From NCBI GenBank assembly GCA_025963185.1, contig JAOPVE010000041.1, forward strand, positions 1-33,078: DNA of 33,078 bases, in the 5' to 3' direction. The stretch comes from Actinomycetes bacterium (lineage in GTDB: Bacteria > Actinomycetota > Actinomycetes > Mycobacteriales > Cryptosporangiaceae). Made by a program: the position numbers and the translations under genes. Below the pieces are notes generated by a model that made no database searches, was not told the origin of the DNA, and saw only the letters and a program-made list of their open reading frames with translations. Positions 2,785-26,764 of this stretch are shown here, in pieces; position 1 is the first letter of the stretch; each line of letters begins with the position of its first letter.

Positions 2785-5163
2785 TCAGCCGGCGCGGCCC
2801 GGTGCGTGGACGGTCCACCCGGCTGTCCGCCACCGGGCGGCGTCCAGGGCGTTCCTGCCGTCGAGGATCACCGGGACGCAGACGATGTCACGCAGCCGGG
2901 CCGGATCCAGCTCGCGGTACTCGGCCCACTCGGTGAGGTGCAGAACCAGGTGTGCGCCCTCGCACGCCTTCTCGGTCTCCAGCACGTAGTCGAGCGAGGG
3001 GAACACGGCGCGCGCGTTGTCGATGGCCTGCGGATCGTGCACCCGAACCTGCGCGCCCTGGAGCTGGAGGCTTGCGGCGACGTTGAGGGCGGGCGAGTCG
3101 CGCACGTCGTCGCTGTCGGGCTTGAAGGCCGCACCGAGGACGGCCACGTTGCGGCCCAGGAGAGATCCGCCGGCCAGGGCTCGGGCGAGGGCGACGACTC
3201 GCTGCCGGGCGCGCATGTTGACCTCGTCGACTTCGCGGAGGAAGGCCAGGGCGCCGCCGACGCCCAGCTCTTCTGCCCTGGCTCCGAACGCGCGGATGTC
3301 CTTGGGCAGGCAGCCGCCGCCGAAGCCGAGACCGGCGGACAGGAAGCGGTGGCCGATCCGTTCGTCGTGGCCGATCGCCTGGGCGAGGGTGGTCACGTCC
3401 GCGCCCGCGGCGTCGCAGACCTCGGACATGGCGTTGATGAACGAGATCTTGGTGGCGAGGAACGCGTTGGCGCTGACCTTCACCAGCTCGGCCGTGGCGA
3501 GGTCGGTCTCGATGAACGGGGTGCCCGCGGCGACGATCGGGGCGTACAGCTCGCGCAGGATCGCCGATCCGCGGCCGGCTTCGGTGCCGATGACGAGCCG
3601 ATCCGGAGTCAGGGTGTCGGCGACGGCGAACCCCTCGCGCAGGAACTCGGGGTTCCAGGCCAGGGTGGTCTCGGCGGGGGCGAGCGCGGCGATCCGCCCG
3701 GCCAGGCTGGCGGCGGTGCCGACGGGGACGGTTGACTTGCCGACGATCAGGGCGGATCGGCGCAGGTGCGGCGCGAGGCCGTCGGCTGCCGAGTGCAGGT
3801 GCCGCAGGTCCGCGGCGTGGGAGTCGGCGCGCTGTGGGGTGCCGACGCAGAGGAAGTGCACGTCCGCGGACTCGGCGGCGTCGGCGAGCGAGGTGGAGAA
3901 CCGCAGCCGTCCGGCCGCGACGTTGCGGGCGAGGATCTCGGGCAGTCCCGGCTCGTAGAACGGTGCCCGGCCGTCGGCGAGGGCCGCGATCTTGGCGGCG
4001 TCGGTATCCACACCGACTACCTCGTGGCCCAGCTCGGCCATGCACGCGGCGTGCACGGCGCCGAGGTAGCCGGTGCCGATCACGGAGATCCGCTGGGGTC
4101 GTTCAGTCACGGCGCTGACCCGGCGCGGGCGTGCGAGGGGGCCGAGCCCTTGCGGGTGCTGGCGCTGGAACCGCCAGGCGTCGGCGCACATGGCCGCGAC
4201 GTCGCGGGTCGCGTGCCAGCCCCACTCGTGGCAGACCTTCGCCGGATCGGCCACCAGCGCCGGCACGTCACCAGGGCGCCGCCCGGCGATCCGGATCGGG
4301 ATGTCCACGCCACTGACCTCAGTGAACGTCCTGACGAGCTCGCGGACCGAGGTGCCGACGCCCGTCCCGAGGTTGTAGCTGCGGTGGCCCGTGCCGTCGG
4401 CGAGGTGCTCGGCGGCGATCCGGTGCGCGACGGCGACATCCACCACGTGCAGGTAGTCCCGCACGCAGGTGCCGTCAGGGGTCGGATAGTCGCCGCCGAA
4501 GATCGTCAGCTCGGGGCGGCGGCCGACCGCGACCTGCATGAGGTACGGCATGAGGTTGCCGGGCACGCCCAGCGGATCCTCGCCGAGCAGCCCAGAAGCG
4601 TGCGCGCCGGCGGGGTTGAAGTAGCGCAGCGAGATCGCCGAGAGCTCGGGGTGGCGCGCGCACGTGTCCTCGATGACGCGCTCGCAGATCCACTTCGAGC
4701 GCGCGTACGGGCTGGCGGGGCTGGCGGGTGAGTCCTCGGTCAGGGGCTGGCCGTCGCCCTCGCCGTAGATCGAGCACGACGAGGAGAACACCAGGTTGTG
4801 CACGCCGTGCGCGGTCATGGCTTTGAGCAGCGCGACGGTGGCGCCGACGTTGCTGTCGTAGTAGTCGAGTGGGAGCTCGACCGACTCGCCGACGGCCTTG
4901 CGGGCGGCGAAGTGGACCACGGTGGCGATCCGGTGGGTGCTGAAGATCTTCTCGAGCAGGTGCGGATCGCGGGCGTCGCCGTCGTAGGCCGCGAGGATCC
5001 GGCGGCCGCCCAGGTCTTCGGCGCGGTCCAGGGCGGTAGGGGTGCTGTTGGAGTAGTCGTCGAGCACGACCAGGTCGTAGCCGTGTTCGAGTAGCTCGAC
5101 GCACGTGTGGCTGCCGATGAATCCAGCGCCGCCGGTGACGAGCACGGTGCGGGCGTTTGTCAC
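2785..5163 (-). CDS. Fused UDP-glucose 4-epimerase / UDP-glucose 6-dehydrogenase
   Basis: One uninterrupted 792-residue frame holds two enzymes. Residues 1-340 are GalE: GGAGFIGS (11-18) binds NAD, Ser129 with YARSK (Tyr153, Lys157) is the catalytic set, and the tail HPQGLGP matches the usual GalE end. Residues 357-792 are Ugd: VIGTGYLGAVHA (361-372), WNPEFLREG, VKVSANAFLATK, and the catalytic Cys618 in GGGCLPKD. Together they interconvert UDP-Glc and UDP-Gal and oxidise UDP-Glc to UDP-glucuronate. The start is GTG 5163 with GGAG about 9 bases upstream. A GTG at 4110 (residue 352) could start a separate Ugd of 441 residues, but no Shine-Dalgarno precedes it and GalE has no stop, so I favour a true fusion. 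It lies 55 bp downstream of the GT2 gene in one operon and probably supplies its sugar donors. Confidence 0.9.
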   Translation of the reverse strand: MTNARTVLVTGGAGFIGSHTCVELLEHGYDLVVLDDYSNSTPTALDRAEDLGGRRILAAYDGDARDPHLLEKIFSTHRIATVVHFAARKAVGESVELPLDYYDSNVGATVALLKAMTAHGVHNLVFSSSCSIYGEGDGQPLTEDSPASPASPYARSKWICERVIEDTCARHPELSAISLRYFNPAGAHASGLLGEDPLGVPGNLMPYLMQVAVGRRPELTIFGGDYPTPDGTCVRDYLHVVDVAVAHRIAAEHLADGTGHRSYNLGTGVGTSVRELVRTFTEVSGVDIPIRIAGRRPGDVPALVADPAKVCHEWGWHATRDVAAMCADAWRFQRQHPQGLGPLARPRRVSAVTERPQRISVIGTGYLGAVHAACMAELGHEVVGVDTDAAKIAALADGRAPFYEPGLPEILARNVAAGRLRFSTSLADAAESADVHFLCVGTPQRADSHAADLRHLHSAADGLAPHLRRSALIVGKSTVPVGTAASLAGRIAALAPAETTLAWNPEFLREGFAVADTLTPDRLVIGTEAGRGSAILRELYAPIVAAGTPFIETDLATAELVKVSANAFLATKISFINAMSEVCDAAGADVTTLAQAIGHDERIGHRFLSAGLGFGGGCLPKDIRAFGARAEELGVGGALAFLREVDEVNMRARQRVVALARALAGGSLLGRNVAVLGAAFKPDSDDVRDSPALNVAASLQLQGAQVRVHDPQAIDNARAVFPSLDYVLETEKACEGAHLVLHLTEWAEYRELDPARLRDIVCVPVILDGRNALDAARWRTAGWTVHAPGRAG

Positions 5164-5218
5164 GACTGGGCTCCGTTCTGGGTCCAGGTGGGGGCTGACC
5201 GGGTCACACCGGTCTCGG

Positions 5219-7063
5219 TCACCACAGCGAGGCGGCGAAACCGCTGGCCGGGTACCGGGTGAGTGCGGCGGCGACGGGCAGGAGCGTGAGGAGGCCGCAG
5301 AGGAACGGGGCGCCGGCCGTGGCGGCCAGCGCGGCGGGGGCGGACACCACCGAGCCGCGCGCGGCCTCGCGGGCGTGCAGGATCGGCACCGCGACGGACA
5401 CGACCGCGTAGTTCACCGCCCCGAGCAGGCAGAGCAGTACGTATCCCGGACCGTGGGCCAGCCGCTCACCGGCCAGCGCCGATCCGGAGAACAGCAGACT
5501 GACCAGCAGGTACGGGGCCATCACCCGGACGCCGAGCGGCTCGAGCCCGGCGTCGCCCTTGGGCGTGACGCGGAACGTGACGGGCCGGGGCCGCACCTTC
5601 TGGACCAGCGCGGCGGCGACCCCGTACGCGATGTACGGCCACCGGGTCAGGACGTACAGCCACAATTCCCAGCTCACGATCGGGGCGTCGGCGGGACGCA
5701 GCAGTCCGCGCCGCCGCAGGAACAGGGTGAGCGCCAGGATGCAGGCCGCAGCCGCGCACCACCGCAGCATGAACTCGCCGTAGCCGACGCGCGCCCAGGT
5801 CAGCCCGGTCACCGCGGCCACCGGGGCGAGCAGCACCCCGCCGATCATCGACAGGCTGAGCAGCGGGTAGTACGCGAGCGCGTAGAGGAACCGCAGGCGC
5901 AGCCGCCACGGGAGCCTGGGCAGGCTGCGCGGAACCAGGCCCAGGAACAGGGTGGTCAGGCTGCGGGCCCACTGGAATTCCTGGGTGATCATCGCGGCGA
6001 AGGTGACCGGTCCCTCCCCGTGGGCCGTGGCGCCGATCGCGAACGCGCCGTCCCAGCCGGCGCACTGGAACACGAACGTGGTGGAGAAGTCCTCGGCGAG
6101 CTCGGGACCGAGTCCGCCGGCCTCGCGCAGGGCCTCGGTGCGGACCGCGTAGTGCGATCCGATGCAGACCGGCGCGAGACCGCCGTTGTGCCCGGCCTGG
6201 CTGGGACCGTCGAACGTGGCCTCGCGGTGGGTCCGGCCGCGCGCCGACCAGGACCGGTCCGCGTTGGAGTCACAGACGCTCGGCGCGGCCACGTACCCGA
6301 TCCCCGGATCGCTGAACGGCCGCACCATCGCGCGCAGGTACCCGGGGGCGGGTACGTGGTCGCAGTCGAGCTGGGCCACGACGTCGTAGTCGCGGTAGCC
6401 CCAGTGGTCGTAGAAGTACGCGAGGTTGCCCTCCTTGCAGCGGGTCCGCCGGGGCCAGGTCTGCCGGTGGTAGCTGCCCACACCGCGGCGGGTCGAGACG
6501 CGGACCCCGGCCCACTCGCACCAGGCGAGGGTCTCGAACGAGGGATCCTCGTCGCAGAGCCACACGTCATACGGGCCGGGCAGGTCCTGGCCGAGCATCG
6601 CCTCCAGAGTGGCGCGGGCGGTGTCCCACGGCTCGGACGGTGCCTTCGTCACGGCGAACGCCACCCGCACGTCCGGCAGCGGTGCGCTCGGGCCGATCCC
6701 GCGTAGCCGGTTGCACGCCACGAGGAAGTAGACGGCGTTCCCGGTCAGGTACGCGAGCAGGGCGCTGCTGACCACGAACCCGCCCATGCTGGCCCGGTGG
6801 GCGGGCTGGAGCCACCAGATCCAGAACCAGGCGGACGCGGCGAGCCAGGCGGCGGTGAACAGCCGGACGGCGATCCGGTCCTCCGCGGCGAGCAGTGGAG
6901 TGAAGGTGCGGCGGCGGGCCCGGTACCGCGGACGGCGTGACGGGGCGAATACCGGCCCGCTCGCGGGAATTGCGGTCACATTTCCGCGCGACAACGTCCA
7001 GATGGCACTCGCTAACGGCGGATCGGCGAACTCCACACTCGATTCGTGCGGCGTGAAAGACAT
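5219..7063 (-). CDS. Membrane GT2 glycosyltransferase, cellulose-synthase-like
   Basis: The 614-residue integral membrane enzyme has two N-terminal membrane segments (about 65-85 and 93-117), a cytoplasmic GT-A domain (about 130-370) and roughly six more membrane segments. GT2 processive motifs are visible: D171 in CDEDP, DCD at 233-235 (metal and UDP binding), AED at 323-325 in place of TED (catalytic base), and QEFQW at 361-365 in place of the usual QxxRW. It should polymerise a sugar from a UDP donor and push the chain through the membrane. The downstream GalE-Ugd fusion points to glucose, galactose or glucuronate units, an inference. No PilZ domain is present, so direct c-di-GMP control is not indicated. 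The start ATG 7063 has AAAGGAA upstream. Product identity is unknown. Confidence 0.85.
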   Translation of the reverse strand: MSFTPHESSVEFADPPLASAIWTLSRGNVTAIPASGPVFAPSRRPRYRARRRTFTPLLAAEDRIAVRLFTAAWLAASAWFWIWWLQPAHRASMGGFVVSSALLAYLTGNAVYFLVACNRLRGIGPSAPLPDVRVAFAVTKAPSEPWDTARATLEAMLGQDLPGPYDVWLCDEDPSFETLAWCEWAGVRVSTRRGVGSYHRQTWPRRTRCKEGNLAYFYDHWGYRDYDVVAQLDCDHVPAPGYLRAMVRPFSDPGIGYVAAPSVCDSNADRSWSARGRTHREATFDGPSQAGHNGGLAPVCIGSHYAVRTEALREAGGLGPELAEDFSTTFVFQCAGWDGAFAIGATAHGEGPVTFAAMITQEFQWARSLTTLFLGLVPRSLPRLPWRLRLRFLYALAYYPLLSLSMIGGVLLAPVAAVTGLTWARVGYGEFMLRWCAAAACILALTLFLRRRGLLRPADAPIVSWELWLYVLTRWPYIAYGVAAALVQKVRPRPVTFRVTPKGDAGLEPLGVRVMAPYLLVSLLFSGSALAGERLAHGPGYVLLCLLGAVNYAVVSVAVPILHAREAARGSVVSAPAALAATAGAPFLCGLLTLLPVAAALTRYPASGFAASLW

Positions 7064-8007: not shown

Positions 8008-11000
8008 GTGTCCTTCAATGGGTTCATCTCCTACAGCCATGCCGCAGATGGCCGGCTTGCCCCAGCGGTGCAGCGTGGGCTGCACCAGCTAGCGAAGCCC
8101 TGGCATCGACGGCGCGCCTTATGGGTCTTCCGCGACCAGACCGGGCTGGCGGTGACCCCGGGGCTGTGGTCGTCGATCCAGAAGGCCCTGGACGGCTCGG
8201 AGTGGTTCATACTGATGGCCTCACCAGAGGCTGCGCGCTCGCAGTGGGTCAACCGCGAGATCGAGCACTGGGTCGCGATGAAGCCCGCAGATCGCATCCT
8301 TCCAGTGGTGACCGGCGGGGAGTGGCGCTGGGATCCCTCGCGAGGCGACTTCGCGGAGGACTCGACGGCGGTCCCGTCCGCGCTGCGCGGAGTGTTCGCC
8401 GAGGAACCCCTGTTCCTGGATCTGCGCTGGGCGCGCGAGGACCAGCACCTGAGTTTGCGGCACTCGCGCTTCCGGGACGCGGTGGCGCAGCTGGCCGCCC
8501 CGATGCACGGGGTGAGCAAGGACGACCTGGAAGGCGAGGACGTCCGGCAGCACAGGACGGCGCAGCGGTTGCGGGCCGCCGCGGTGACCGCGGTGGTGGT
8601 CCTGGGCCTGATGACGTCTCTGTCCGGGGCCTTCGCCGTGCGCAGCGCAGGCAAGGCGACCGCCGCCGCAGCCGAAGCGCTGCGGCAACAGCGCGTGGCG
8701 GCGAAGCAGAAGGGCAGCGCCGAGCGGTCGGCTGCGGACGCGCGCTGGCAGGAGAAGAACGCGCGCACGCAGGAGAAGCGTGCGAAGGACGCGGGGGCCG
8801 AAGCGCGGCGGCAGGACGAGAACGCGCGCCAGCAGGCCGAGAACGCGCGCAAACAGCAGGCGCTGGCGGATCAGGCGTCCGCACGCGCACGTGAGCAGGA
8901 ACGCCTGGCCCAGCAGCAGCGCGAGCTGGCCAAGCACTCCGCCGCAGACGCGACCCGGCAGAAGCAGGTCGCCGACGGCCAAGAGCGGCTCGCGCAGGAA
9001 GCCTCGGCAGAGGCCGCGCGGCAGAAGGAGCTCGCCCGGGAGCAGCAGCGGCTGGCCGACGAAGCCGCCAAGGACGCCGCGCGGCAGAAGCAGGCCGCCG
9101 AAGAGGAGCGCCGCAAGGCCGACGAGGCCGCCGCCGACGCCCGCCGCCAGCAGGACAACGCCGACCGGCAGCAACGGATCGCGGTCGGCCGTCGCGCGAA
9201 CAACGAGGCGAAGGCGGCGCTCGCGGATGACCCGAAAACTGCCGTCATGCTCAGCACCGCCGCGGCAAAGGTGCAGTCGGACGAAGAAGCGCGCAAGCAC
9301 CTCGCCGGCCTGGTCACCTCGACGCACTACGCGGGCCCACTGGGCCACTTCGTCGACGTGGCGTATCTCGGCAACGACGTGCTGCTCGCGCAGGACAATT
9401 CCCGGCTGCGGCTGTGGAACGTGGCCGACAGGGCGAATCCGTCTCCAGTGGCGGACCTCGGCGGTTACGACCAGTGGACGGCCAGTCCGAACGGACGGAC
9501 GGTCGCCGCTGCGGCCTACAACGGATCCTCGGTGTTTCTGCTGGACGTGACGAAGCCATCGGCCTCCACACCGCTCGCCGAGATCCCGGTCAGTTCGGGG
9601 GTGTCCAGTCTCACGATCAGCCCGGACGGGCGCACTCTGTTCGTGGGCGCCCAGGACTGGAGCGCCAACGACGTGGGCGACCTGTGGGATGTGTCGGACC
9701 TCCGCCGGCCGAAGCCACTCGCCACCCGGTTCGACGGCTCGGCATTCGTGGCCAAGGCCGCATTCAGCTGGGACGGGACCGCCCTGGTGACCCTGGATGA
9801 TGACGCCAAGACAACCGTGTGGAACCTGGCCGATCCCACCAAGCCGGAAAAGGCTGCCGCACTTGATGGCACGGTGTGCAGCGAAGGCGTGAACGCTATG
9901 GCCTTTCTGCCGAGAGCGCCTGAACTCGTCATCGGCTGCAACGACCACACCCTGCTCGTCGATCTGTCGAATCCGGCCGAGCCAACGGGAACCGTGTTGA
10001 TGGCTGACGTGGGCGGCAAGGTCACCTCGCTCCTCGTCAGCGCGGACGGCCGCAGGCTCGCCACCGGCGTCGAGACCGTGGTTAGCCGCGGCATCGAGAG
10101 CGGATTCGCGACCGTGTCGGAGCTGGGCGGCGCCAGCCCCGGCGTGCCGCGCGAGCTTGTCCGCGTGCCGGAGCCCGGAAAGCTGCGGGCCATGGCCCTG
10201 ACCCCGGACGGGCGAACATTGACCACCTCCGATGGGGAGGCGCTCACGAGGCAGTGGAACGTGGACGCCTACGGCGCTCCGGAATCGCGGTCCGCCCTCA
10301 CCAGCGGGGGGCAGCAGGGCCTGGCCACGGCGTTCACCCCGGACGGTCGTTCGATGCTGACTGTCGGCTCGAACCCGCAGGCAGCGGTGTGGGACGTGTC
10401 CCACCCGTCCGCCCCTGTCCGGCGGGCCAGCCCTACCGTTCACGACAAGCCGATCTACCGCGCGGCGTTCACTCCCGACGCGCGCATCCTGGCCACCGCG
10501 GACGCAGACGGCCGGGTAAGGGTCTCGGACATGTCCGATCCGGCTCACCCGGCGACCATTGCGGAGTTCGTTGCGCAGGTCATCGCGCAGGTCGGCTCGG
10601 AGGGCGAGATCGTGATCAGCCCGGACGGCAGGACGATCGCCGCGGGTACGGAGTTCGGTTCTCCCGTGCTGTGGGATGTGACCCGGGCTGGCGCCGTAAC
10701 CCGGCTCCGTCCACTCGGCAACAGCGTCATGCCGATGGCGTTCGGCCCGGACGGCCGGACCGTGGCCATCGCGGACCGGCCCGGTTCGGGGGCCTCGCTG
10801 TGGACCCTGGACGGCGCCGGGGGCCCGACTCGGGTCCGGCCGATCGGCGCCCTGGGCGGTGCATCCGTCGGAACGATTGCCTTCAGTCCGGACGGCGGGA
10901 AAGTAGCCATGGTGGGCTGGGGCACGGGTGGGCTCTGGGACGTGAGCCAGGCCCGCTCCCGCCAAACCGGTGCATTCAGTATCCGCGGGGCTACCGGCTC

Positions 11001-11358
11001 CGCCGAATTCAGCCGCGACGGCCGGACGCTAGCCATCCTGGGCCAGTACAACACGGCCTTGTGGGACGTCGCTGGCGGAGTCGATCCTGTCCAGGTCGGA
11101 GAGATACCACTCGATGCGGATCTGGTCAGTTTCCGGCTCACGGCTACGTTCAGCCCGGACGGGCGGACCCTGGCGACCGGCAAGGCCGACTACACCGGTT
11201 CCGAGGGAATCGCCGCGCTGTGGGATCTCACGAAGCTCGCCGGACTGCGCGCCGATCCCACGCTGCAGGGGTGCGCGATCACGGGCCGCGGCCTGTCGGA
11301 GGACGAGTGGGCCCGCTACATCCCCGAACTCCCGCACCGGAAGACCTGCCCGCACTGA
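8008..11358 (+). CDS. TIR domain - membrane segment - coiled coil - WD40 protein
   Basis: The 1116-residue protein starts at GTG 8008 (GGGGG 7 bases upstream). Residues 1-165 form a TIR domain: FISYSH (6-11), WVFRDQTGL (39-47), and W80-VNRE84, where Glu84 fits the catalytic glutamate of TIR NADases. Residues 190-210 form one hydrophobic helix after a basic stretch. Residues 215-400 are an Ala/Gln/Arg/Glu coiled coil with 21-residue periodicity (ARQKQxA units). After DDPKTAVML near residue 410, WD40 repeats run from 444 to 1105. I count 14 blade-like units, most with a (S/T)PDGRT motif, matching two seven-bladed propellers. The layout after the TIR copies actinomycete nSTAND-WD40 proteins, with TIR replacing the NTPase. 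With basic residues before the helix, TIR inside and propellers outside is likely. A sensor or antiphage role is inference. Confidence 0.8.
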   Translation: MSFNGFISYSHAADGRLAPAVQRGLHQLAKPWHRRRALWVFRDQTGLAVTPGLWSSIQKALDGSEWFILMASPEAARSQWVNREIEHWVAMKPADRILPVVTGGEWRWDPSRGDFAEDSTAVPSALRGVFAEEPLFLDLRWAREDQHLSLRHSRFRDAVAQLAAPMHGVSKDDLEGEDVRQHRTAQRLRAAAVTAVVVLGLMTSLSGAFAVRSAGKATAAAAEALRQQRVAAKQKGSAERSAADARWQEKNARTQEKRAKDAGAEARRQDENARQQAENARKQQALADQASARAREQERLAQQQRELAKHSAADATRQKQVADGQERLAQEASAEAARQKELAREQQRLADEAAKDAARQKQAAEEERRKADEAAADARRQQDNADRQQRIAVGRRANNEAKAALADDPKTAVMLSTAAAKVQSDEEARKHLAGLVTSTHYAGPLGHFVDVAYLGNDVLLAQDNSRLRLWNVADRANPSPVADLGGYDQWTASPNGRTVAAAAYNGSSVFLLDVTKPSASTPLAEIPVSSGVSSLTISPDGRTLFVGAQDWSANDVGDLWDVSDLRRPKPLATRFDGSAFVAKAAFSWDGTALVTLDDDAKTTVWNLADPTKPEKAAALDGTVCSEGVNAMAFLPRAPELVIGCNDHTLLVDLSNPAEPTGTVLMADVGGKVTSLLVSADGRRLATGVETVVSRGIESGFATVSELGGASPGVPRELVRVPEPGKLRAMALTPDGRTLTTSDGEALTRQWNVDAYGAPESRSALTSGGQQGLATAFTPDGRSMLTVGSNPQAAVWDVSHPSAPVRRASPTVHDKPIYRAAFTPDARILATADADGRVRVSDMSDPAHPATIAEFVAQVIAQVGSEGEIVISPDGRTIAAGTEFGSPVLWDVTRAGAVTRLRPLGNSVMPMAFGPDGRTVAIADRPGSGASLWTLDGAGGPTRVRPIGALGGASVGTIAFSPDGGKVAMVGWGTGGLWDVSQARSRQTGAFSIRGATGSAEFSRDGRTLAILGQYNTALWDVAGGVDPVQVGEIPLDADLVSFRLTATFSPDGRTLATGKADYTGSEGIAALWDLTKLAGLRADPTLQGCAITGRGLSEDEWARYIPELPHRKTCPH

Positions 11359-12806: not shown

Positions 12807-14312
12807 TCAGCGGGTGGCGAGGCGATGGTAGGCCTGGGTCCAGCGCAGTTCCTGGATGAATCGGCGGACCTGGGTCGATCCGTCGATCAGGGCCAGTTCG
12901 GTACGGGTGATCTCGGCGAAGTCCCACAGGTGCTCGCTGGTCAGCGCTGTGGACAGCACGGTGTGGTGGGGTCCGCCAGCGGTGAGCCACGCCTCGGTGG
13001 AGGTGCGCAGGTCCGGCGCTGGCTTCCAGACCGCTCGCGCCACCGGCAACTTGGGCAGGGGTGCGTCGGGTTCGACGACCTCCACCTCGTTGCCGATGAA
13101 CCGGAACCGGTCCCCCACGTCGGCGATCCCCAGGATGACCGCCGGACCCGGGGCGGCGTCGAAAACCAGGCGGACCGGGTCCTCGCGGTTCCCGATCCCG
13201 AGCGGGTGGATCTCCAGGCGGGGCGTCCCCGCGGCGATGGTCGGGCACACCTCGAGCATGTGCGCGCCGAGGATCCGCTCGTGACCGGGCACCAGGTTGT
13301 AGGTGTAGTCCTCCATGAACGAGGTGCCCCCGGCCAGCCCGTGCGCCATGACCTTGAGCGCACGCAGCATGGCCGCGGTCTTCCAGTCACCCTCGCCGCC
13401 GAAGCCGTATCCGTCTGCCATCAGCCGCTGGACCGCCAGGCCGGGTAGCTGGCGGAGCCCGCCGAGGTCCTCGAAGTTGGTAGTGAACGCCGTGAACCCG
13501 CCCGAGGTGAGGAAGGACCGCAGGCCCAGCTCGATCCGGGCGCCGTACCGCAGGGACTCGTGCCGCTCGCCGCCGGTCCGCAGTTCGGGGGCGACGTCGT
13601 ACGTGCTCTCGTACTCGGTGGCGAGGGCGTCCACGTCGGAGCCGGCGATGGAGTCCACGACCGCGACGAGGTCGTTCACGCCGTAGGTGTTGACAGAGAT
13701 CCCGAACCTCAGCTCGGCCTCGACCTTGTCGCCCTCCGTCACGGCGACGTTGCGCATGTTGTCGCCGAAGCGGGCCAGGCGGCCACCACGCAGGGCGGCC
13801 GCGGCGGCCGCGGCCCGCGCCCAGGTCGCGATCCGCGCGCTCACCGCGGGATCGCTGACATGCCCGGCCACGGTCTTGCGGGCGAGGCCGAGGCGGGTCT
13901 GGATGTAACCGAATTCGCGGTCGCCGTGCGCGGCCTGGTTCAGATTCATGAAGTCCATGTCGATCTCGCCCCACGGCAGCTCGACATTGGCCTGGGTGTG
14001 CAGGTGCAGCAGCGGTTTGGCCAGCGCGTCCAGCCCCAGGATCCACATCTTGGCCGGGGAGAACGTGTGCATCCACGTGATCACCCCGAGGCAGGCGTCG
14101 TCGGTGTTCGCGTCGAGCAGCACCCGCCGGATCGCGCCCGGCTCGGTCAGGACCGGCTTCCAGACCACCTCCCACGGGATGTCCCCGGTGCTCCCGAGTT
14201 GCTTGGTGATCTCCTGCGACTGCGCGGCCACCTGGCCGAGGATGTCGTCGCCGTAGAGGCCCTGGCTCCCGGTGAGGAACCAGATCTGCCCCGGCATCGT
14301 CGCGATGCTCAT
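12807..14312 (-). CDS. araA: L-arabinose isomerase AraA
   Basis: The 501-residue enzyme converts L-arabinose to L-ribulose in the cytoplasm. Its length equals the E. coli family. The metal and catalytic residues are present: Glu307 in GGEGDW, Glu334 in SFMEDYTY, His351 in GAHMLEV and His450 in GGPHHT. The N-terminus has [11 protein letters not shown]. The frame is open 28 codons further upstream, but ATG 14312 has AAGGAG 7 bases before it and matches family starts. It is the last gene of the leftward operon, 22 bp after araD. Regulation is expected from the LacI-controlled promoter upstream of chvE, unless internal promoters exist. Confidence 0.95.
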
Positions 14313-14334
14313 GTTGCGCTCCTTCACGGGTGGG

Positions 14335-15015
14335 TCAGCGCTGGCCGTAGACGTTCTGGTACCGGTCGTAGAGCCGGTCGACGTCGGCTCGCGCAATGGG
14401 CTGCGGATCGCCGAGCTGGCGGGTCAGGTGGACGGTGCGGGCGACGTCCTCGCACATCACGGCGGCCTTGACGGCGGCCCGGGCGGTCCGGCCGATGGTG
14501 AAGACGCCGTGGTTGCGCATGAGGACCGCCGGGGAGCGGGATCCACGCAGGGTCGCCACGATCCCCTTGCCGATGTCGTCGCTGCCGATCAGCGCGAACG
14601 GGCCGATCGGGATCTCGCCCCCGAACTCGTCCGCCATCGCGGTCAGCACGCACGGGACGGGCTCGCCGCGGGCCGCCCAGGCCGAGGCGTAGGGCGAGTG
14701 CGTGTGGACCACGCCGCCGACCTCGGGCATCGCGCGGTACACGTAGGCGTGCGCCGCGGTGTCGCTCGACGGGGACAGGTCGCCCTCGACGACGTTCCCG
14801 TCCAGGTCACACAGGATCATCGTGTCCGGCGCGATCTCGTCGTAGTCGACGCCGCTGGGCTTGATGATGAACAGGCCGGCGCCGGGGACCCGGCCGGAGA
14901 CGTTCCCGGCGGTCCAGGCGACGAGGTTGTAGCGGACGAGCTCGGCGTGCAGCTCGCTGACCTCGTGGCGGACGGCCTCGATGGCCGCTGCCCGGGCCGA
15001 CCCGGCCGTGGTCAT
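14335..15015 (-). CDS. araD: L-ribulose-5-phosphate 4-epimerase AraD
   Basis: The 226-residue class II aldolase-fold enzyme turns L-ribulose 5-phosphate into D-xylulose 5-phosphate, joining arabinose to the pentose phosphate pathway. Zinc ligands are seen in VVHTHSPYA (His104, His106) and RNHGVF (His169). Asp85 in SPSSDT lies at the position of the catalytic Asp of the E. coli enzyme, with the same offset from the HTH pair. The phosphate-site motif AGNVSGR is at 36-42. ATG 15015 overlaps the araB stop by four bases (ATGA), and AAAGGCGG inside araB is its ribosome binding site, so translation is coupled. The order B-D-A differs from the E. coli B-A-D order. Confidence 0.93.
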
Positions 15016-16676
15016 GATGTGGCCGCCTTTCGCTTGATGTCGCGGAGCCGGTGCATGACGTCGTTGCCGCCCCGGCCGAAGTAGTCGTGCAGGGCGGAGT
15101 ACTCGGCGTACAGGGCGTCGTAGGCCGCGGCGCGGCGCTCGTCCGGGGTGTACGCGCCCGTCTGCTTGTGTCCCATCGCGGCCGACGCGGCGTGGACGTC
15201 GGGGTAGGCCCCCGCGGCCACGGCGGCGTGGATCGCCGATCCGAGCGCCGGACCCTGGGCCGACGAGAGCAGGGACAGCGGCCGGCGGGTCACGTCGGCG
15301 TAGAGCTGCATGAGGAACTGGTTCTTCAGGAGCCCGCCGGCCACGACCAGCTCGGTGACCGGAACTCCGGCGGCCTGGAACGACTCGATGATCTTCCGGG
15401 TGCCGAACGCGGTGGCCTCCAGGAGCGCCCGGTAGATCTCCTCGGGCCTGGTGCCGAGCGTGAGCCCGACGACGAGGCCGGACAGTTCGTGGTCCACCAG
15501 CACGGACCGGTTGCCGCTGTGCCAGTCGAGCGCGACCAGGCCGTGCTCGCCCACCGCCTGCTCGGCGGCGAGCGCGGTGAGGTACTGGTGCAGATCCAGG
15601 TTCCGCTCGGCGGCCGCGCGCTCGTACGCGGCGGGCACGGCGTTGCGGACGAACCACGCGAAGATGTCCCCCACGCCGCTCTGCCCGGCCTCGTAGCCCC
15701 ACAGTCCCGGGGTGATGCCGTCGCGGACCACCCCGCACATGCCGGCCACCTCGCCGAGCTGGTCGCTGTTCATCACGTGGCAGGTGGACGTGCCCATCAC
15801 CGCGAGCATCTGGCCCGGCTCGACGGCCTGTGCCGCGGGCGCGGTGACGTGCGCGTCGACGTTGCCCACGGCGACCGGCGTGCCCGGCCGCAGCCCGGTC
15901 CAGCGGGCGGCCTGCTCGGTCAGCCCGCCCGCCAGTCCGCCGAGCGGCGCCAGTGGCTGGGCGACCTTGGACTCGAAGAACCCGGTGAACCGCTCGTCGA
16001 GCGCGGCGAGGAAGTCCGGGGAGGGATAGGAACCGTCCTGGTAGACCGCCTTGTACCCCGCCGTGCAGGCGTTGCGCACGTACGTGCCGCAGAGCTGCCA
16101 GATGATCCAGTCGGCGGCCTCGACCCAGCGCTCGGTGCGCGCGTACAGCTCCGGATCCTCTTCGAGCAGTTGCAGGCCCTTCGCCAGCTCCCACTCGGAC
16201 GAGAGCTTGCCACCGTACCGGCCGATCCACGGCTCGCCGCGGGCGTGCGCGAGTGCGTTGATCCGGTCGGCCTGGCCCTGCGCGGCGTGGTGGCGCCACA
16301 GCTTGACGTAGGCGTGCGGGCGGTCCGCGTACTCGGGCAGGTCGCTGAGCGGAGTGCCGTCGGCGAGGGTGGGCAGCACCGTGCAGGCGGTGAAGTCGGT
16401 GCCGATGCCGATCACGTCGTCCGCGGAGGCACCGCTGGTAGCCAGCGCCTTCGGCACGGCGGTGCGCAGCACGTCGAGGTAGTCCGAGGGCACCTGGAGC
16501 GCCCAGTCGTGGGGCAGCCGCACGTCGCTGCCCGGCAGCGCGCCGGTCACCACCGCGTGGGAGTACTCGTGGACCGCGCTGCCCAGTTCCTCGCCGTCGT
16601 CCACCGCGACCACCACCGCCCGCCCCGACAGGGTGCCGAAGTCCACCCCGATGACGACGGGGCGCCGGGCCGTCAC
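15012..16676 (-). CDS. araB: L-ribulokinase AraB
   Basis: The 554-residue FGGY-family kinase phosphorylates L-ribulose with ATP. Visible features are the N-terminal phosphate loop GVDFGTLSGRA (10-20), IGTDFTACTVLP, the substrate-side GNVDAHVTAPAA, the ATP-domain MGTSTCHVM, and the C-terminal VVAGGLLKNQFLMQ with GPALGSAIHAA. Its length fits ribulokinases (about 550-570) rather than xylulokinases (about 490). The start GTG 16676 overlaps the permease stop (GTGA), and the end overlaps araD (ATGA). A much longer open frame continues rightward to 20393 in antisense-like low-complexity sequence and is not real. Confidence 0.93.
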   Translation of the reverse strand: MTARRPVVIGVDFGTLSGRAVVVAVDDGEELGSAVHEYSHAVVTGALPGSDVRLPHDWALQVPSDYLDVLRTAVPKALATSGASADDVIGIGTDFTACTVLPTLADGTPLSDLPEYADRPHAYVKLWRHHAAQGQADRINALAHARGEPWIGRYGGKLSSEWELAKGLQLLEEDPELYARTERWVEAADWIIWQLCGTYVRNACTAGYKAVYQDGSYPSPDFLAALDERFTGFFESKVAQPLAPLGGLAGGLTEQAARWTGLRPGTPVAVGNVDAHVTAPAAQAVEPGQMLAVMGTSTCHVMNSDQLGEVAGMCGVVRDGITPGLWGYEAGQSGVGDIFAWFVRNAVPAAYERAAAERNLDLHQYLTALAAEQAVGEHGLVALDWHSGNRSVLVDHELSGLVVGLTLGTRPEEIYRALLEATAFGTRKIIESFQAAGVPVTELVVAGGLLKNQFLMQLYADVTRRPLSLLSSAQGPALGSAIHAAVAAGAYPDVHAASAAMGHKQTGAYTPDERRAAAYDALYAEYSALHDYFGRGGNDVMHRLRDIKRKAATS

Positions 16677-17908
16677 GAGCCGACCTTCTTCTTGTTGTAG
16701 ATGTCGAAGCCGACCGCGGCGAGCAGCACGAGGCCCTTGATGACCTGCTGGACGTCGGTGCCGATGCCCAGCAGCGACATGCCGTTGTTGAGGACTCCCA
16801 GGACCAGGCCGCCGATGATCGCGCCGAGCACGGTGCCGACGCCGCCGCTGGCCGATGCGCCGCCGATGAACGCCGCGGCGATGGCCTCGAGCTCGAACCC
16901 GCTGCCGGCGTTGGGGGTGCCCGCGTTGAGCCGGGCTGCGAACACGAGCCCGGCCAGCGAGGCGAGGACGCCCATGTTGACGAAGACCAGGAAGACGACG
17001 CGCTGGTTCTTGACGCCGGACAGCTGGGCGGCCGGGGAGTTGCCGCCGACGGCGTAGGAGTGCCGGCCGAGCACGGTGGTCCGCATGACGAACGCGTAGG
17101 CGATGAACAGGACGATCAGGATGATGGCGACCACCGGGACGCCCCGGTAGCTGGCGAGCAGGAGCGTCATCACGGCGATGAATGCCGCGATGCCGACGCA
17201 CTTGGCGGCGAACAGCCAGGCAGGCGTGGTGTCGAAGCCGTAGCTGGCCTGCCGCCGCCGGTCCCGGATCTCCTGGCCCAGCGCGCCGGCGATGACGACA
17301 GCGCCGAGGATCAAAGTCGGGTTGTGGTAGAGCGTGTGGTAGCCGAGCTCGGGGAGGAATCCGTTGCTGATCTTCTGGAACCCGGTCGGGAAAGGCGCGA
17401 TCGACTGGCCCGACAGCAGGTACTGGGTGGCGCCGCGGAAGACGAGCATCCCGGCGAGAGTGACGATGAACGACGGGATCCCGACGTAGGCGATCCAGTA
17501 CCCCTGCCAGGCGCCGACGGCCGCCCCGATGACGAGGCAGAGCACCAGCGCCACCGGCCACGGCACGTTGTGCTTGACCATCAGCACCGCGGCGGTCGCA
17601 CCGGAGAACGCGGCGACCGAGCCCACGGACAGGTCGATGTGGCCGGTGATGATGACGATCACCATGCCGATCGCCAGGATCAGGATGTAGCTGTTCTGCT
17701 GGATGATGTTGGTGACGTTCAGCGGCCGGAGCAGGATGCCGCCGGTCCAGATCTGGAACAGCAGGACGATCAGGCCGAGGGCGACGATCATTCCGTACTG
17801 GCGCAGGTTGCTGCGGATCATGTCCCGCAGGAATTCGCCGATGCCCCGGCGCGGGGACGGCGGCGGCGGAACCGGTGCGGCGGCGGGCCGGGTTTCGATG
17901 GTCGTCAT
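16673..17908 (-). CDS. mmsB: CUT2 sugar ABC transporter permease, MmsB/GguB type
   Basis: The 411-residue membrane protein has an N-terminal Pro-rich cytoplasmic tail (1-25) and about ten hydrophobic segments. GHIDLSVGSVAAFSGA (about 89-104) is the conserved signature of ribose/xylose/multiple-monosaccharide permeases, as are FIGGASASGGVGTV and GLVLGVLNNGMSLLG near the end. It forms the membrane channel for a monosaccharide and works as a homodimer with the double ATPase encoded just upstream, whose stop lies 3 bp before this ATG. Context with araBDA indicates L-arabinose, though ChvE/MmsAB relatives carry several monosaccharides. Confidence 0.9.
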   Translation of the reverse strand: MTTIETRPAAAPVPPPPSPRRGIGEFLRDMIRSNLRQYGMIVALGLIVLLFQIWTGGILLRPLNVTNIIQQNSYILILAIGMVIVIITGHIDLSVGSVAAFSGATAAVLMVKHNVPWPVALVLCLVIGAAVGAWQGYWIAYVGIPSFIVTLAGMLVFRGATQYLLSGQSIAPFPTGFQKISNGFLPELGYHTLYHNPTLILGAVVIAGALGQEIRDRRRQASYGFDTTPAWLFAAKCVGIAAFIAVMTLLLASYRGVPVVAIILIVLFIAYAFVMRTTVLGRHSYAVGGNSPAAQLSGVKNQRVVFLVFVNMGVLASLAGLVFAARLNAGTPNAGSGFELEAIAAAFIGGASASGGVGTVLGAIIGGLVLGVLNNGMSLLGIGTDVQQVIKGLVLLAAVGFDIYNKKKVGS

Positions 17909-17911
17909 GGG

Positions 17912-19441
17912 TCAGTCCCCGCTCTTCATCATGTAGCGCATGAGGGTCTCCTGGGTTGCGTCGCCACGCGGCACTTCGCCGGTCAGCCGGCCCTCGCTGA
18001 GGGCGTAGATGCGGTCGCACAGCCCGAGCAGTTCCGGCAGCTCGGACGAGATGACGACGATCGCCTTGCCCTGGGCGGCGAGGCTGTTGATGACGGTGTA
18101 GATCTCGTACTTCGCCCCGACGTCGATGCCACGGGTGGGCTCGTCGAGGATCAGGACGTCCGGATCGGCGAAGATCCACTTGCTCAGGACGACCTTCTGC
18201 TGGTTGCCGCCCGAGAGCTTGCCGACGCCTTCGCGCACCGACGGGGTCTTGATCGACATGCTCTTGCGGAACCGCTCGGCCACGACGGCTTCCTCGTGGT
18301 CGTTGACGAGGAACCGCCGGCTCACCTTGCCCAGGGCGGCGAGGGAGATGTTGCGGGTGATGTTCTCCAGCAGGTTCAGCCCGTAGTGCTTGCGGTCCTC
18401 GGTGGCGTAGGCGATGCCGTGGCCGATCGCCTCGGAGACGCTTCGGACGCGGATCTCCTTGCCGTCCTTGACGACCTTTCCGCTGATCCCCCGGCCGTAG
18501 CTGCGGCCGAACACGCTCATGGCCAGCTCGGTGCGGCCCGCCCCCATGAGCCCCGCGAGCCCGACGATCTCGCCGCGCCGCACGTTGATCGACACCCCGT
18601 CCACGACCTTGCGGTGCTGGTCGATCGGGTGGTGCACGGTCCAGTCCTCGATGGCGAACACGACCTCGCCGATGTCCGGCGTGCGGTCGGGGAAGCGGTG
18701 CTCCAGGTCGCGGCCGACCATGCCGCGGATGATCCGCTCCTCGCTGATCGGCTCCCCGCCGACGCTGAGGGTCTCGATCGTCCTGCCGTCCCGCAGGATC
18801 GTGATCGAGTCGGCGATCCGGGTGATCTCGTTCAGCTTGTGCGAGATGATGATCGAGGTCACGCCGTGCGACTTCAGGCCAAGGATCAGGTCGAGCAGCT
18901 TGCCGCTGTCCTCGTCGTTCAGGGCCGCGGTCGGCTCGTCGAGGATCAGCAGCTTCACTTCCTTCGACAGCGCCTTGGCGATCTCGACGAGCTGCTGCTT
19001 GCCGACGCCGATGTCCGCGACGCGGGTCTGCGGATTCTCCGGTAACCCGACCCGCGCGAGCAGCGCCGTCGCGTGCGTGATCGTCTCGTTCCAGTTGATG
19101 ACCCCGCCGGACGCGTGCTCGTTGCCGAGGAAGATGTTCTCCGCGATGGACAGGTACGGCACCAGGGCGAGCTCCTGGTGGATGATCACGATGCCGCGGC
19201 GCTCGCTGGACTTGATGTCCTTGAACTCGCACGGCTCGCCCTCGAAGAAGATCTCGCCCTCGTAGGAACCGTGGGGATGCACCCCGCTGAGCACCTTCAT
19301 GAGGGTGGACTTGCCGGCGCCGTTCTCCCCGCAGATGGCGTGGATCTCGCCGGGCTGCACCATCAGGTTCACGTCCGAGAGCGCCTTGACGCCGGGGAAG
19401 GTCTTGGTGATCGAGCGCATTTCCAGGATCGGCTTGCTCAT
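17912..19441 (-). CDS. mmsA: CUT2 sugar ABC transporter ATPase, double nucleotide-binding domain
   Basis: The 509-residue protein carries two ABC domains. Domain 1 has Walker [10 protein letters not shown] (38-46) and Walker [12 protein letters not shown]. Domain 2 has the degenerate Walker [12 protein letters not shown], the signature LSGGNQQKV and Walker [13 protein letters not shown]. Degeneracy of the second P-loop (GAGRTE in place of GxGKST) is normal for CUT2 ATPases. The protein powers uptake of the sugar delivered by the ChvE-like lipoprotein. Start ATG 19441 lies 12 bp after the chvE stop; ATGs and spacing support one transcript. Confidence 0.93.
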
Positions 19442-19453
19442 CGTCTCCGCCCC

Positions 19454-20542
19454 CTACCTGAGCTGCGCGGCGGTGTAGTAGCCGGTGTCGAGGAGCACCT
19501 TGTAGTTGCCCTTGTCGACGCTCACGGGCTGGAGCAGGTACGCGGGCACGACCCTGGCGCCGTTGTCGTACTGCTTGGTGTCGTTGACCGGTGGCTTCCC
19601 GCCCGTCAGCACCGCGTCGCCCATGCGGACCGCGATCTTGGCCAGTTCCCGGGTGTCCTTGTAGACGGTCTGGGTCTGCTCCCCCGCCAGAATCGACTTC
19701 ACCGAGGCCAGCTCGGCGTCCTGCCCGGTGACGATGGGGAGCGCCTTCGAGCCGGATCCGTAGCCGACGCCTTTGAGCGCCGAGAGGATCCCGATCGAGA
19801 TCCCGTCGTACGGGGAGAGCACCGCGTCGACGGACTCTGTGGTGTAGGCCTTGCTCAGCAGGTTGTCCATCCGGGACTGTGCGAGCCCGCCGTCCCACCG
19901 CAGGGTCGCCACCTGCGCGAACTTCGTCTGGCCGCTCTTGACCTTGAGGCGGCCCTTGTCGATGTAGGGCTGCAGCACGCTCATCGCGCCGCGGAAGAAG
20001 AATCCGGCGTTGTTGTCGTCGGGGGATCCGGCGAACAGCTCGATGTTGAACGGGCCCTTTCCGGCCTTGAGCCCGAGCTTGTCGACGATGTACGAGCCCT
20101 GCAGGACGCCGACCTTGAAGTTGTCGAAGGTGGCGTAGTAGTCGACGTTCTTGCTGCCGCGGATCAGCCGGTCGTACGAGATCACCTTGATGTTCGCGTC
20201 CGCCGCCTGCTGGAGCACGTTCGTCAGCGAGGTCGCGTCGATCGCGGCGACGACCAGCAGCTTGTCGCCCTTGGTGATCATGTTCTCGATCTGCGAGACC
20301 TGGTTCTCCACGACGTTGTCGCCGTACTGGAGATCCGCCTTGTAGCCGAGCGCCTCGAACTGCTTGGCCATGTTGTTGCCGTCGGCGATCCACCGCTCGG
20401 ACGACTTCGTCGGCATCGCCAGGCCGATCGTGCCGCCCCGTTCGCCGCCCGGCGTAGTGACGCCGTAGGTGCGCCCGCAGGCCGTCGCGGCCAGGGCGAG
20501 GGCCAGCGCCAGCAGCGCTAAGACCCGGTAACTGCGGTGCAT
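19454..20542 (-). CDS. chvE: ChvE-like sugar-binding lipoprotein of the CUT2 importer
   Basis: The 362-residue periplasmic-binding-protein-fold lipoprotein has a hydrophobic signal rich in Leu/Ala ending in LAATAC (Cys22), an acceptable lipobox. The mature part begins [16 protein letters not shown], matching the ChvE/multiple-monosaccharide family, with VSYDRLI-like ([11 protein letters not shown]), [12 protein letters not shown] and [14 protein letters not shown] further on. It captures the sugar outside the membrane for MmsAB. Start ATG 20542 has a perfect GGAGG. It is the first gene of the chvE-mmsA-mmsB-araB-araD-araA operon and follows a promoter with two LacI-type operators. Confidence 0.92.
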
Positions 20543-20628
20543 GGTTCCTCCTGAAAGCCGTGGTTGCACGGCGGAATCCCGAGGGGATGACGAGGACTGT
20601 GCGGCGCCGGCCGAGCCGGAATCGCCCG

Positions 20629-20642
20629 TGTTAGCGCTAACA
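20629..20642. promoter_or_regulatory. AraR-type operator O1 before chvE
   Basis: TGTTAGCGCTAACA is a perfect 14-bp palindrome with a central CG, the typical LacI-family operator form. It lies just downstream of the predicted -10 of the chvE promoter. Its centre is 24 bp from that of the second identical site. Confidence 0.85.
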
Positions 20643-20651
20643 TTGGATCGA

Positions 20652-20679
20652 GTGTTAGCGCTAACATCGCCCATGTCAA
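20652..20679 (-). promoter_or_regulatory. Promoter of the chvE-araA operon with operator O2 inside
   Basis: On the minus strand a perfect TTGACA (20679-20674) is followed after 16 bp by TAACAC (20657-20652). A second perfect TGTTAGCGCTAACA operator occupies 20653-20666, filling the spacer and overlapping the -10. Bound repressor would block RNA polymerase directly. The distance from -10 to the chvE ATG is about 110 bp. Confidence 0.75.
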
Positions 20680-20772
20680 GAGGATGTTTCAGGGCGGTGC
20701 CGCGAGTTCGCCCGCGCCCCCGAACGGGTGGGACTGCCGTGCCTGCCGGGGCGTGCGCTACCGGGGAGGTGG

Positions 20773-21813
20773 CTACCGGGAGGTGCTCTGCCGGACGACG
20801 AGTTCCGGGGCCACTACCTGGTGCCGCGCGGCGGCGCGGCCGGCGGCCACCTGCTCGAGCACCAGCTCGATACTGCGCCGCCCCACGGCGGCGAAGTCCT
20901 GCCGCACCGTCGTCAGCGGCGGGGTGTAGTAGCCGGCCTCGGGCACGTCGTCGAAGCCCGCGACGAGCACGTCCTCGGGGATCCGCAGGCCGGCTTCGTG
21001 GAACGCCCGCAGGAGCCCGAGCGCCATCTGGTCGTTGGCGACGAACACCGCGCCGACGTCCTTGCGGCGCGCGAGCTTGCGGCCGGCCTGGTACCCCGAC
21101 GGCGGGCTCCAGTCCCCCCGCAGCGGCGCGGGTACCTCCGCCCCGGCCTCCGCCAGTTCGTCCCGCCAGCCCGCGACCCGGCTCTCGGCCTCGATCCAGT
21201 CGGCCGGGCCGGCCACGTGCCACACCGTGCGGGCGCCCCGGTCGAGCAGGTGACGGGTGACGAGCCGCGCGCCCAGTTCCTGGTCGACGCAGACCGACGC
21301 CAGACCGGGTGCGCGCCCGCCTTCGACGACGACCGCGGGCAGGTCGGGGTCGAGCACCGGCAACACCGTGCTGGTGTCCCGCAGCGGGGCGATCAGCACG
21401 ATGCCGTCGACATCGTGCATCGCGAGCCGGTCGATCGCCTCCCGGAGACTGCCCTCGGTCATCGCCTTCACGCTGGCGACGGTGACGGCGTAACCCGCCT
21501 CCCCCGCCGCCTGCTCGATGCCGAACAGGGTGCTGGCCGGTCCGTACAGCGTGGTGTCGAAGCTGACCACGCCGATCGTCTGCGACCGGCGGGTCGCCAG
21601 CGCGCGCGCCGCCCGGTTCCGCCGGTAGCCGAGCTCGCCGATCGCCTGGAGCACGCGCGAGGTGGTCTCCGGGCTGACCGACCCGGGATCGTTGAGGACG
21701 CGCGACACCGTCTGGTGGGAGACCCCGATGGCCTGCGCGACGTCGGCCATCGTCGCCGCGCGGCGAGCGGGCCGGACGGGCGGCTCGGGCAGGTCCCCGC
21801 CGGTCTCAGCCAC
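20773..21813 (-). CDS. LacI-family repressor, probable arabinose regulator (AraR-like)
   Basis: The 346-residue LacI/GalR regulator has an HTH at about 21-45 ([20 protein letters not shown]), the hinge region with [18 protein letters not shown], and a full sugar-binding domain with [19 protein letters not shown] and [25 protein letters not shown] 21813 is taken as the start because AGGGGG lies 8 bases upstream; GTG 21819 and ATG 21750 are alternatives. It lies between the CUT1/GH51 operon and the CUT2/ara operon. TGTTAGCGSTAACA palindromes are found on both its own promoter and the chvE promoter, so it probably represses itself and chvE-araA and is released by arabinose or a derivative. The effector is inferred. 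Confidence 0.9.
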
Positions 21814-21868
21814 CGCCACGTCCCCCTGACGCCTCGCACCGCCTGGCCGGCCACCGGCGCAGACCGTG

Positions 21869-21897
21869 ATGTTAGCGGTAACATCGCCGGACGCCAA
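21869..21897 (-). promoter_or_regulatory. Autoregulated promoter of the LacI repressor with operator
   Basis: On the minus strand TTGGCG (21897-21892), a 17-bp spacer and TAACAT (21874-21869) form a good promoter. The operator TGTTAGCGGTAACA (21870-21883) covers the -10 and differs from the chvE sites by one base. A weaker operator on the regulator's own promoter fits negative feedback. Confidence 0.75.
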
Positions 21898-21947
21898 GGT
21901 CACCGGGCCGCGCCGGGGACGCAGCCGCGATCCGCAGCGTGGCCGCG

Positions 21948-23456
21948 TCACGTGCCAGCCTCCAGCCGGACCATGTTCCACGACAGCGGCGGCAGGACCA
22001 CGCTCACCCGTCCGCCGTCGACCCCCATGCCGTCCAGTGGCCGGGGCGTGACGCGGCCGGGCTCGGCAGCGCTGTTCACCGCGTCCGGATCGTCGTCGAA
22101 GACCGCGACCCGCCGTGCGACCGTCAGGCTGGGGCACGCCCGCAGGTCGATGTCCAGGGCGAGCTCCTCGTGCTGGTCCCGGTTCACGGCGAACAGCGTG
22201 ACGGCACCGGACTCGTCGTCGAGCACAGCCACGGCGTCCAGCACGGGCACCTCCCCGAGCCACCGCGTCTCGTGCACAGGGCTGGCGGGCTCGACCTGCA
22301 GCACCGTGCCGCGGCCGTGCCGGGAGGTGAGCGCGAACGGGTGGAAGATGCTCTGGCGCCAGGCCGGCCCGCCGGGCTCGGTCATGATCGGGGCGATGAC
22401 GTTGACCAGCTGGGCGAGGCAGCCGATCTTCACGCGGTCCGCGTGGCGCAGCAGCGTGATCAGCAGGCTGCCGACGACCACGGCGTCCGCCACGGAGTAG
22501 ACGTCCTCGATCAGGCGTGGCGCCTCGGCCCAGCCAAGGTTCTCCTCGCCGGCGAACCGCTGCTGGTACCAGACGTTCCACTCGTCCACGGACAGGTTGA
22601 CGCGCTTGCTGTGCCGGCCCACCGACCTGGCGTGGTCGCAGGTGGCGATGACGTCCGCGATGAACCGGTCCAGGTCGACGGCGGCCGCGAGGAAGCTGTC
22701 CCGGTCGTCGCCGCGCTGCTCGTAGTAGCTGTGCAGCGAGACGTAGTCGACCAGGTCGTAGGTCTCGGCGAGGACCGTCGCCTCCCAGGTTCCGAACGTC
22801 GGCATCCGGTGGTGCGAGCTCCCGCAGGCGACCAGCTCGATCGACGGATCCACCCGTCGCATCGCCTTGGCGGTCTCGGCCGCCAGCCGGGCGTACTCCC
22901 CCGCGGTCTTGTGGCCGATCTGCCACGGGCCGTCCATCTCGTTGCCCAGGCACCAGAGCCGTACGTCGTACGGATCGGCGGATCCGTTCTTGCGGCGCAG
23001 GTCCGACCAGTAGGTCCCGCTGGGGTGGTTGCAGTACTCGACGAGGTTCCGCGCCGCGTCCACGCCTCGCGTGCCCAGGTTGACGGCCATCATCGGCTCG
23101 CTGCCGACGCCGCGCGCCCAGCGGGTGAACTCGTCGACCCCCACCTGGTTGCTCTCGATCGAGCGCCAGGCCAGGTCGAGCCTCACCGGACGCTCATCGC
23201 GGGGACCGGTGCCGTCCTCCCACTCGTAGTTGGACACGAAGTTGCCGCCCGGGTAGCGCAGCATCGGGGCGCCGAGCTCCCGGACGAGCTCGGCGACGTC
23301 GCCGCGAAAACCGTCGTGGTCCGCGGCGGGGTGGCCGGGCTCGAAGATCCCGGTGTAGACGCAGCGGCCCATGTGTTCGACGAAGGATCCGTACAGCCTC
23401 GGATCGACGGCCGAGACGCGAAGGACGGGATCGATCGTGAGCGAAGCGCTGTGCAT
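21948..23456 (-). CDS. GH51 alpha-L-arabinofuranosidase, cytoplasmic
   Basis: The 502-residue retaining glycosidase removes terminal L-arabinofuranose from arabino-oligosaccharides. The acid/base is Glu173 in CLGNEMDGPWQ and the nucleophile Glu292 in LSVDEWNVWY. Other GH51 marks are LYGSFVEHMGRCVYTGI (21-37), RYPGGNFVSNYEW (67-79) and HSYY. There is no signal peptide, so it acts on sugars already imported, consistent with its place 19 bp downstream of the CUT1 permeases. ATG 23456 has AGGGGAGA upstream. It is the last gene of the CUT1 operon; its product, arabinose, then enters araBDA. Confidence 0.93.
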   Translation of the reverse strand: MHSASLTIDPVLRVSAVDPRLYGSFVEHMGRCVYTGIFEPGHPAADHDGFRGDVAELVRELGAPMLRYPGGNFVSNYEWEDGTGPRDERPVRLDLAWRSIESNQVGVDEFTRWARGVGSEPMMAVNLGTRGVDAARNLVEYCNHPSGTYWSDLRRKNGSADPYDVRLWCLGNEMDGPWQIGHKTAGEYARLAAETAKAMRRVDPSIELVACGSSHHRMPTFGTWEATVLAETYDLVDYVSLHSYYEQRGDDRDSFLAAAVDLDRFIADVIATCDHARSVGRHSKRVNLSVDEWNVWYQQRFAGEENLGWAEAPRLIEDVYSVADAVVVGSLLITLLRHADRVKIGCLAQLVNVIAPIMTEPGGPAWRQSIFHPFALTSRHGRGTVLQVEPASPVHETRWLGEVPVLDAVAVLDDESGAVTLFAVNRDQHEELALDIDLRACPSLTVARRVAVFDDDPDAVNSAAEPGRVTPRPLDGMGVDGGRVSVVLPPLSWNMVRLEAGT

Positions 23457-23475
23457 GGATCTCCCCTTCTCTGCC

Positions 23476-25301: not shown

Positions 25302-25332
25302 GCGAACCCCCTTCAGGGGAGGGCGTCGAGGG

Positions 25333-26691: not shown

Positions 26692-26742
26692 CTGATCACC
26701 GTCCTGGTGGATGCGCGCGGGCGGGATGCGCGCTGGAGGGGT

Positions 26743-26764
26743 GCGCGGGGCGGCGCCCCGTGCG
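26743..26764. terminator. GC-rich hairpin at the end of the short LacI gene
   Basis: GCGCGGGGC and GCCCCGTGCGC pair around GGC next to the LacI stop, with one unpaired base. No T-run follows. It may slow transcription or shield the upstream mRNA rather than terminate, because the next operon genes appear to depend on read-through. Confidence 0.3.

Follow-up and report, generated by a model that had tools for sequence, protein, structure and literature searches.

Natural fusions of two nucleotide-sugar enzymes are known, one being ArnA, in which a formyltransferase is joined to a UDP-GlcA oxidative decarboxylase. In actinobacteria, UDP-glucose 4-epimerase (GalE) and UDP-glucose 6-dehydrogenase (Ugd) are encoded side by side within a conserved cluster that in relatives of the locus described here reads uxs / GT2 / galE / ugd / beta-helix. 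The uxs product is a UDP-glucuronate decarboxylase (top PDB matches UXS1) that adds UDP-xylose in most relatives' clusters, and the beta-helix protein, which looks secreted, often ends the cluster. Adjacent, separate galE and ugd genes are found in three of four same-family genomes (G001-G003), with 64-65% identity to our locus in GalE and 68-69% in Ugd, and Streptomyces and other actinobacteria also carry the two genes adjacent but separate, in the same order. An earlier sequence-based note stated that the two enzymes are normally separate proteins, which agrees with the relatives examined. In these unfused relatives galE stops a few residues past an NPxGY motif and ugd opens with an ATG or GTG codon immediately ahead of TVIGTG; the start and stop frequently overlap, as GTGA or TGATG, with overlaps of 1-4 nt at junctions L009, L010, L011, and L041 and further examples across the g146 genus. 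The closest relative of the Ugd studied here (73%) comes from Nocardia vinacea, where a uxs-GT2-ugd cluster without galE is present (L040:3129-7311).

The window analyzed here is a stretch of 33,078 nt from a draft actinomycete genome (G000; 5.38 Mb in 547 contigs, 93% complete). On its minus strand, galE and ugd form one open reading frame of 792 codons (5163..2785), with a GTG start at 5163, a stop at 2787..2785, and no stop codon between the two halves, as the earlier note had read it. The calculated mass of the 792 aa product is 83.9 kDa. The GalE start is preceded by a GGAG Shine-Dalgarno (SD) sequence (5171..5174, minus strand) whose duplex with the anti-SD is predicted at -8.4 kcal/mol. 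Residues 1-340 (4144..5163) constitute the GalE domain, which matches TIGR01179 in an NCBIfam search at 400 bits against a cut-off of 262 (residues 7-339; profile positions 2-331/332) and retains the GGAGFIG, SSSCSIYG, and YxxxK motifs expected of GalE proteins. Residues 357-790 (2794..4095) constitute the Ugd domain, which matches TIGR03026 at 423 bits against a cut-off of 190 (residues 358-771), contains all three expected Pfam domains (PF03721, PF00984, and PF03720, each exceeding its cut-off), and preserves GTGYLG, NPEFLREG, and the GGGC catalytic-Cys loop (GFGGGCLPKD). Both enzymes are complete, as previously proposed. The Ugd half scores 376 against the TuaD equivalog cut-off of 700, which leaves its specificity for UDP-Glc presumptive. 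A linker of ~16 residues, 341-356 (4096..4143), with the sequence HPQGLGPLARPRRVSAVTERPQR, separates the domains. In a structure model built with 24 homologous sequences the halves adopt two separate folds joined by a flexible, apparently disordered link (pLDDT < 50 at 340-353); at an overall pTM of 0.53, the way the model positions one domain against the other carries no information.

The reading frame begins 55 nt downstream of a GT2 gene (5219..7063, minus strand) encoding a cellulose-synthase-like processive glycosyltransferase, the adjacent polymerase that the earlier note had recognized. The window copy of the cluster retains GT2-galE-ugd; uxs and the beta-helix gene do not adjoin it, and a uxs-like gene lies on another contig. 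Separate GalE and Ugd paralogues are present elsewhere in the genome. The window also contains an L-arabinose utilization cluster (12807-26907, minus strand) with arabinose isomerase, a class II aldolase, sugar ABC transporters, and an alpha-L-arabinofuranosidase C-terminal domain. On the plus strand (8008-11358), a gene encodes a protein of 1116 aa that combines an N-terminal TIR-like region with WD40 propellers downstream of it and may serve in defence or signalling; the TIR assignment is weak, falling just under the Pfam cut-off, with a weak ThsB-like PADLOC match.

The junction retains traces of an ordinary operon pair. Window GalE reads HPQGL and then continues for 16 further residues straight into ugd, where an internal GTG (4110..4108, minus strand; ORF nt 1054) occupies the ugd start position of unfused relatives. 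This GTG is part of a gene-overlap relic, GTGACTGA (4103..4109, minus strand), at which both alternative frames close, by a TGA in frame +1 (4109..4107; ORF nt 1055) and a TGA in frame +2 (4105..4103; ORF nt 1059). Stops are scarce in these two frames (12 and 5 per 2379 nt), and from these counts we estimate the chance of both falling within three codons of the old start at ~0.001. With both relic stops lying exactly at the internal GTG, shifting the frame by one base, forwards or backwards, at any point of the tail would yield an ordinary overlapping pair. Loss of an in-frame galE stop by point mutation was ruled out because none of the tail codons from HPQGL to the internal GTG lies within a single substitution of a stop, and an indel is therefore the shortest path to the fusion. 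A candidate site is a run of five C residues (4137..4141, minus strand), one of two such runs in the reading frame, which follows the final residues of GalE and precedes the start of ugd, inside the critical 30 nt.

We consider the most probable reading, with a probability of roughly 0.6, to be a lineage-specific translational fusion of an overlapping galE-ugd pair by a small natural indel. The ancestral genes would have shared a few bases and been translationally coupled, as their counterparts in relatives are; the 3' tail of galE, which is not conserved, would have gained one base (+1) or, with the same effect, lost two (-2), abolishing the galE stop. Ribosomes would now run from galE across the short disordered linker into ugd and make an 84 kDa protein in which both enzymes are complete and independent. 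We infer that the indel is present in the organism and not merely in its assembly, and that the fusion protein is made and active. That the fused frame is real in the cell, whether or not some separate Ugd is also produced, is probable overall.

An assembly or base-calling artefact could produce the same junction: if a false insertion or deletion of one base had entered the galE tail, perhaps at the C5 run, a pair that overlaps by GTGA in the organism would appear joined in the assembly. Removal of one base yields ...CCG TGA, precisely the overlap type of the relatives; the fusion is known from a single draft genome in 547 contigs and is not conserved, and the authors of GeneTack regard singleton frame oddities as mostly indels or errors (PMC3711429). 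Codon usage is neutral, the present frame not being favoured over the frame with a stop (-1.5 against -0.4), which is compatible with an artefact and proved uninformative as a means of dating or locating the frame change. A sequencing error was rightly listed in the earlier note as what would overturn the fusion, and such an error is possible; it is made less likely by a codon-model scan of 444 kb of stretches from this genome, in which frameshift-like junctions were not in excess (5 per 444 kb, compared with 10 per 417 kb in the finished genome of the relative G001). The absence of an SD sequence ahead of ugd also counts against an artefact, as a mistake in the assembly would leave the element in place. 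The anti-SD duplex at the internal GTG reaches -3.7 kcal/mol, against a median of -3.3 for random 20-mers from the same genome, which bears out the earlier remark that this GTG has no SD. At 13 other ugd starts (12 from unfused pairs and one from the second fusion described below) values range from -5.8 to -11.3, so that among the 14 junctions compared only the one in the window lacks the element. Because ~20% of overlapping gene junctions in the same genome have equally weak SDs, this is moderate evidence only. An artefact, then, is an unlikely explanation, though the strongest competitor to a natural indel.

Less likely again is a correct DNA sequence with two products, the read-through fusion and a separate Ugd initiated at the internal GTG. 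The GTG still sits at the ancestral ugd start, in coupled pairs a downstream gene can be translated even if its SD is weak (PMC3711429), and in the second fusion the in-frame ugd start retains a strong G-rich SD (-10.0). At the window junction, however, there is no stop, and hence no termination to feed re-initiation, and the internal GTG itself lacks an SD.

In close to 2,000 look-ups of genomes, some of them repeated from one search to the next, stop-free in-frame galE-ugd genes were found only in the window and in genome G689; in four further genomes (G316, G1490, G1446, and G1774) galE and ugd are in frame, yet stops are present. Among the matches listed from a plasmid search, adjacent genes were seen and no clear fusion at comparable identity, and the literature searched, with incomplete coverage, yielded no report of a natural GalE-Ugd fusion. 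The search for similar proteins in actinobacteria proposed earlier thus returned no conserved class, the sole other case being the 826-aa G689 protein (L143/L148; L148:3095-5575). There, a poly-G run at the overlap doubles as the SD of ugd, and a single G decides between a fusion and two genes: G689 has seven G residues and is fused, whereas its sister species G578 (L224) has six, a GTGA overlap, and an intact stop. G578 and four other congeners examined all keep the overlap and the stop. The one-G difference from this sister species identifies G689 as an independent event, or as an error at the run of seven G, and provides a precedent for fusion by one base. Shared ancestry of the two fusions was considered and rejected: in a tree of the concatenated proteins, whose deep branches are weakly supported, the two fusions are placed apart from each other among unfused pairs, and the sister species of G689 are unfused. 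Slippage might occur at homopolymers in the tail of galE (the C5 run of the window, six or seven G in the G689 genus), an idea to which we assign little probability; if it were correct, the operon would toggle between making GalE and Ugd as two proteins and making them as one tethered enzyme with both activities, and the polysaccharide synthase would receive a different supply of UDP-sugars. Beside the G689 pair (L143:135-1424, plus strand) an ORF judged by eye to resemble a GH53-type endo-galactanase is a hint of a galactose-containing polymer.

The earlier note had suggested that the fusion channels UDP-glucose to UDP-Gal and UDP-GlcA. Strictly speaking, this would not be channelling, since GalE and Ugd both consume UDP-glucose and no intermediate is passed along. 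A conserved bifunctional enzyme selected for channelling would fit the polymerase in the same operon and the second in-frame case in G689; such an enzyme is nevertheless highly improbable, as the fusion is missing from all other operon-bearing relatives examined, the two fusions stand apart among unfused pairs in the tree (with weak deep support), and the two enzymes compete for a single substrate. Most likely, the product of a natural indel would be a pair of tethered enzymes that supply the neighbouring GT2 with UDP-GlcA and with UDP-Gal or a different C4 epimer, the tether probably providing fixed stoichiometry and co-location. At most, the fusion would fix a 1:1 co-supply of UDP-Gal and UDP-GlcA beside the synthase, a putative benefit. 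At the position that we take to be the GalE gate, equivalent to Tyr299 of E. coli, the alignment places Leu in the window GalE and its cluster homologues. With Leu at this presumed gate GalE may accept a wider range of substrates and, given the UDP-xylose that uxs adds in most relatives, could conceivably epimerize UDP-Xyl or UDP-GlcA.

The locus is a clean illustration of how a single step can turn an overlapping operon pair into a bifunctional enzyme, and its ancestral junction can still be read. Should the protein be real, tethering both UDP-glucose branches beside a processive glycosyltransferase would allow a test of whether fixed stoichiometry affects polymer supply. Should the assembly be in error, the locus is an ordinary galE-ugd operon. 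The window gene is a sporadic, rare new fusion of known enzymes and does not represent a conserved actinobacterial protein class. Gene order and neighbours are those of the actinobacterial uxs/GT2/galE/ugd/beta-helix cluster (G001-G003 and Streptomyces L038, L041, and L049), with identities of 57-65% in GalE and 63-69% in Ugd; there the two proteins are encoded separately, by genes whose junction carries both a stop and an SD, while the window gene is a single frame with no SD at the junction. The G689 gene shares the domain order, the lack of a stop, and the operon, and differs in its longer linker and in the strong G-rich SD kept at its internal GTG. ArnA, PDB entries of which appeared among the structure matches, involves other enzymes, is conserved across species, and has an established function. 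Yeast Gal10 (PDB 1z45, matched in the search) is likewise a naturally bifunctional sugar enzyme with GalE as its N-terminal half; the partner of GalE is a mutarotase there and a UDP-glucose dehydrogenase in the window.
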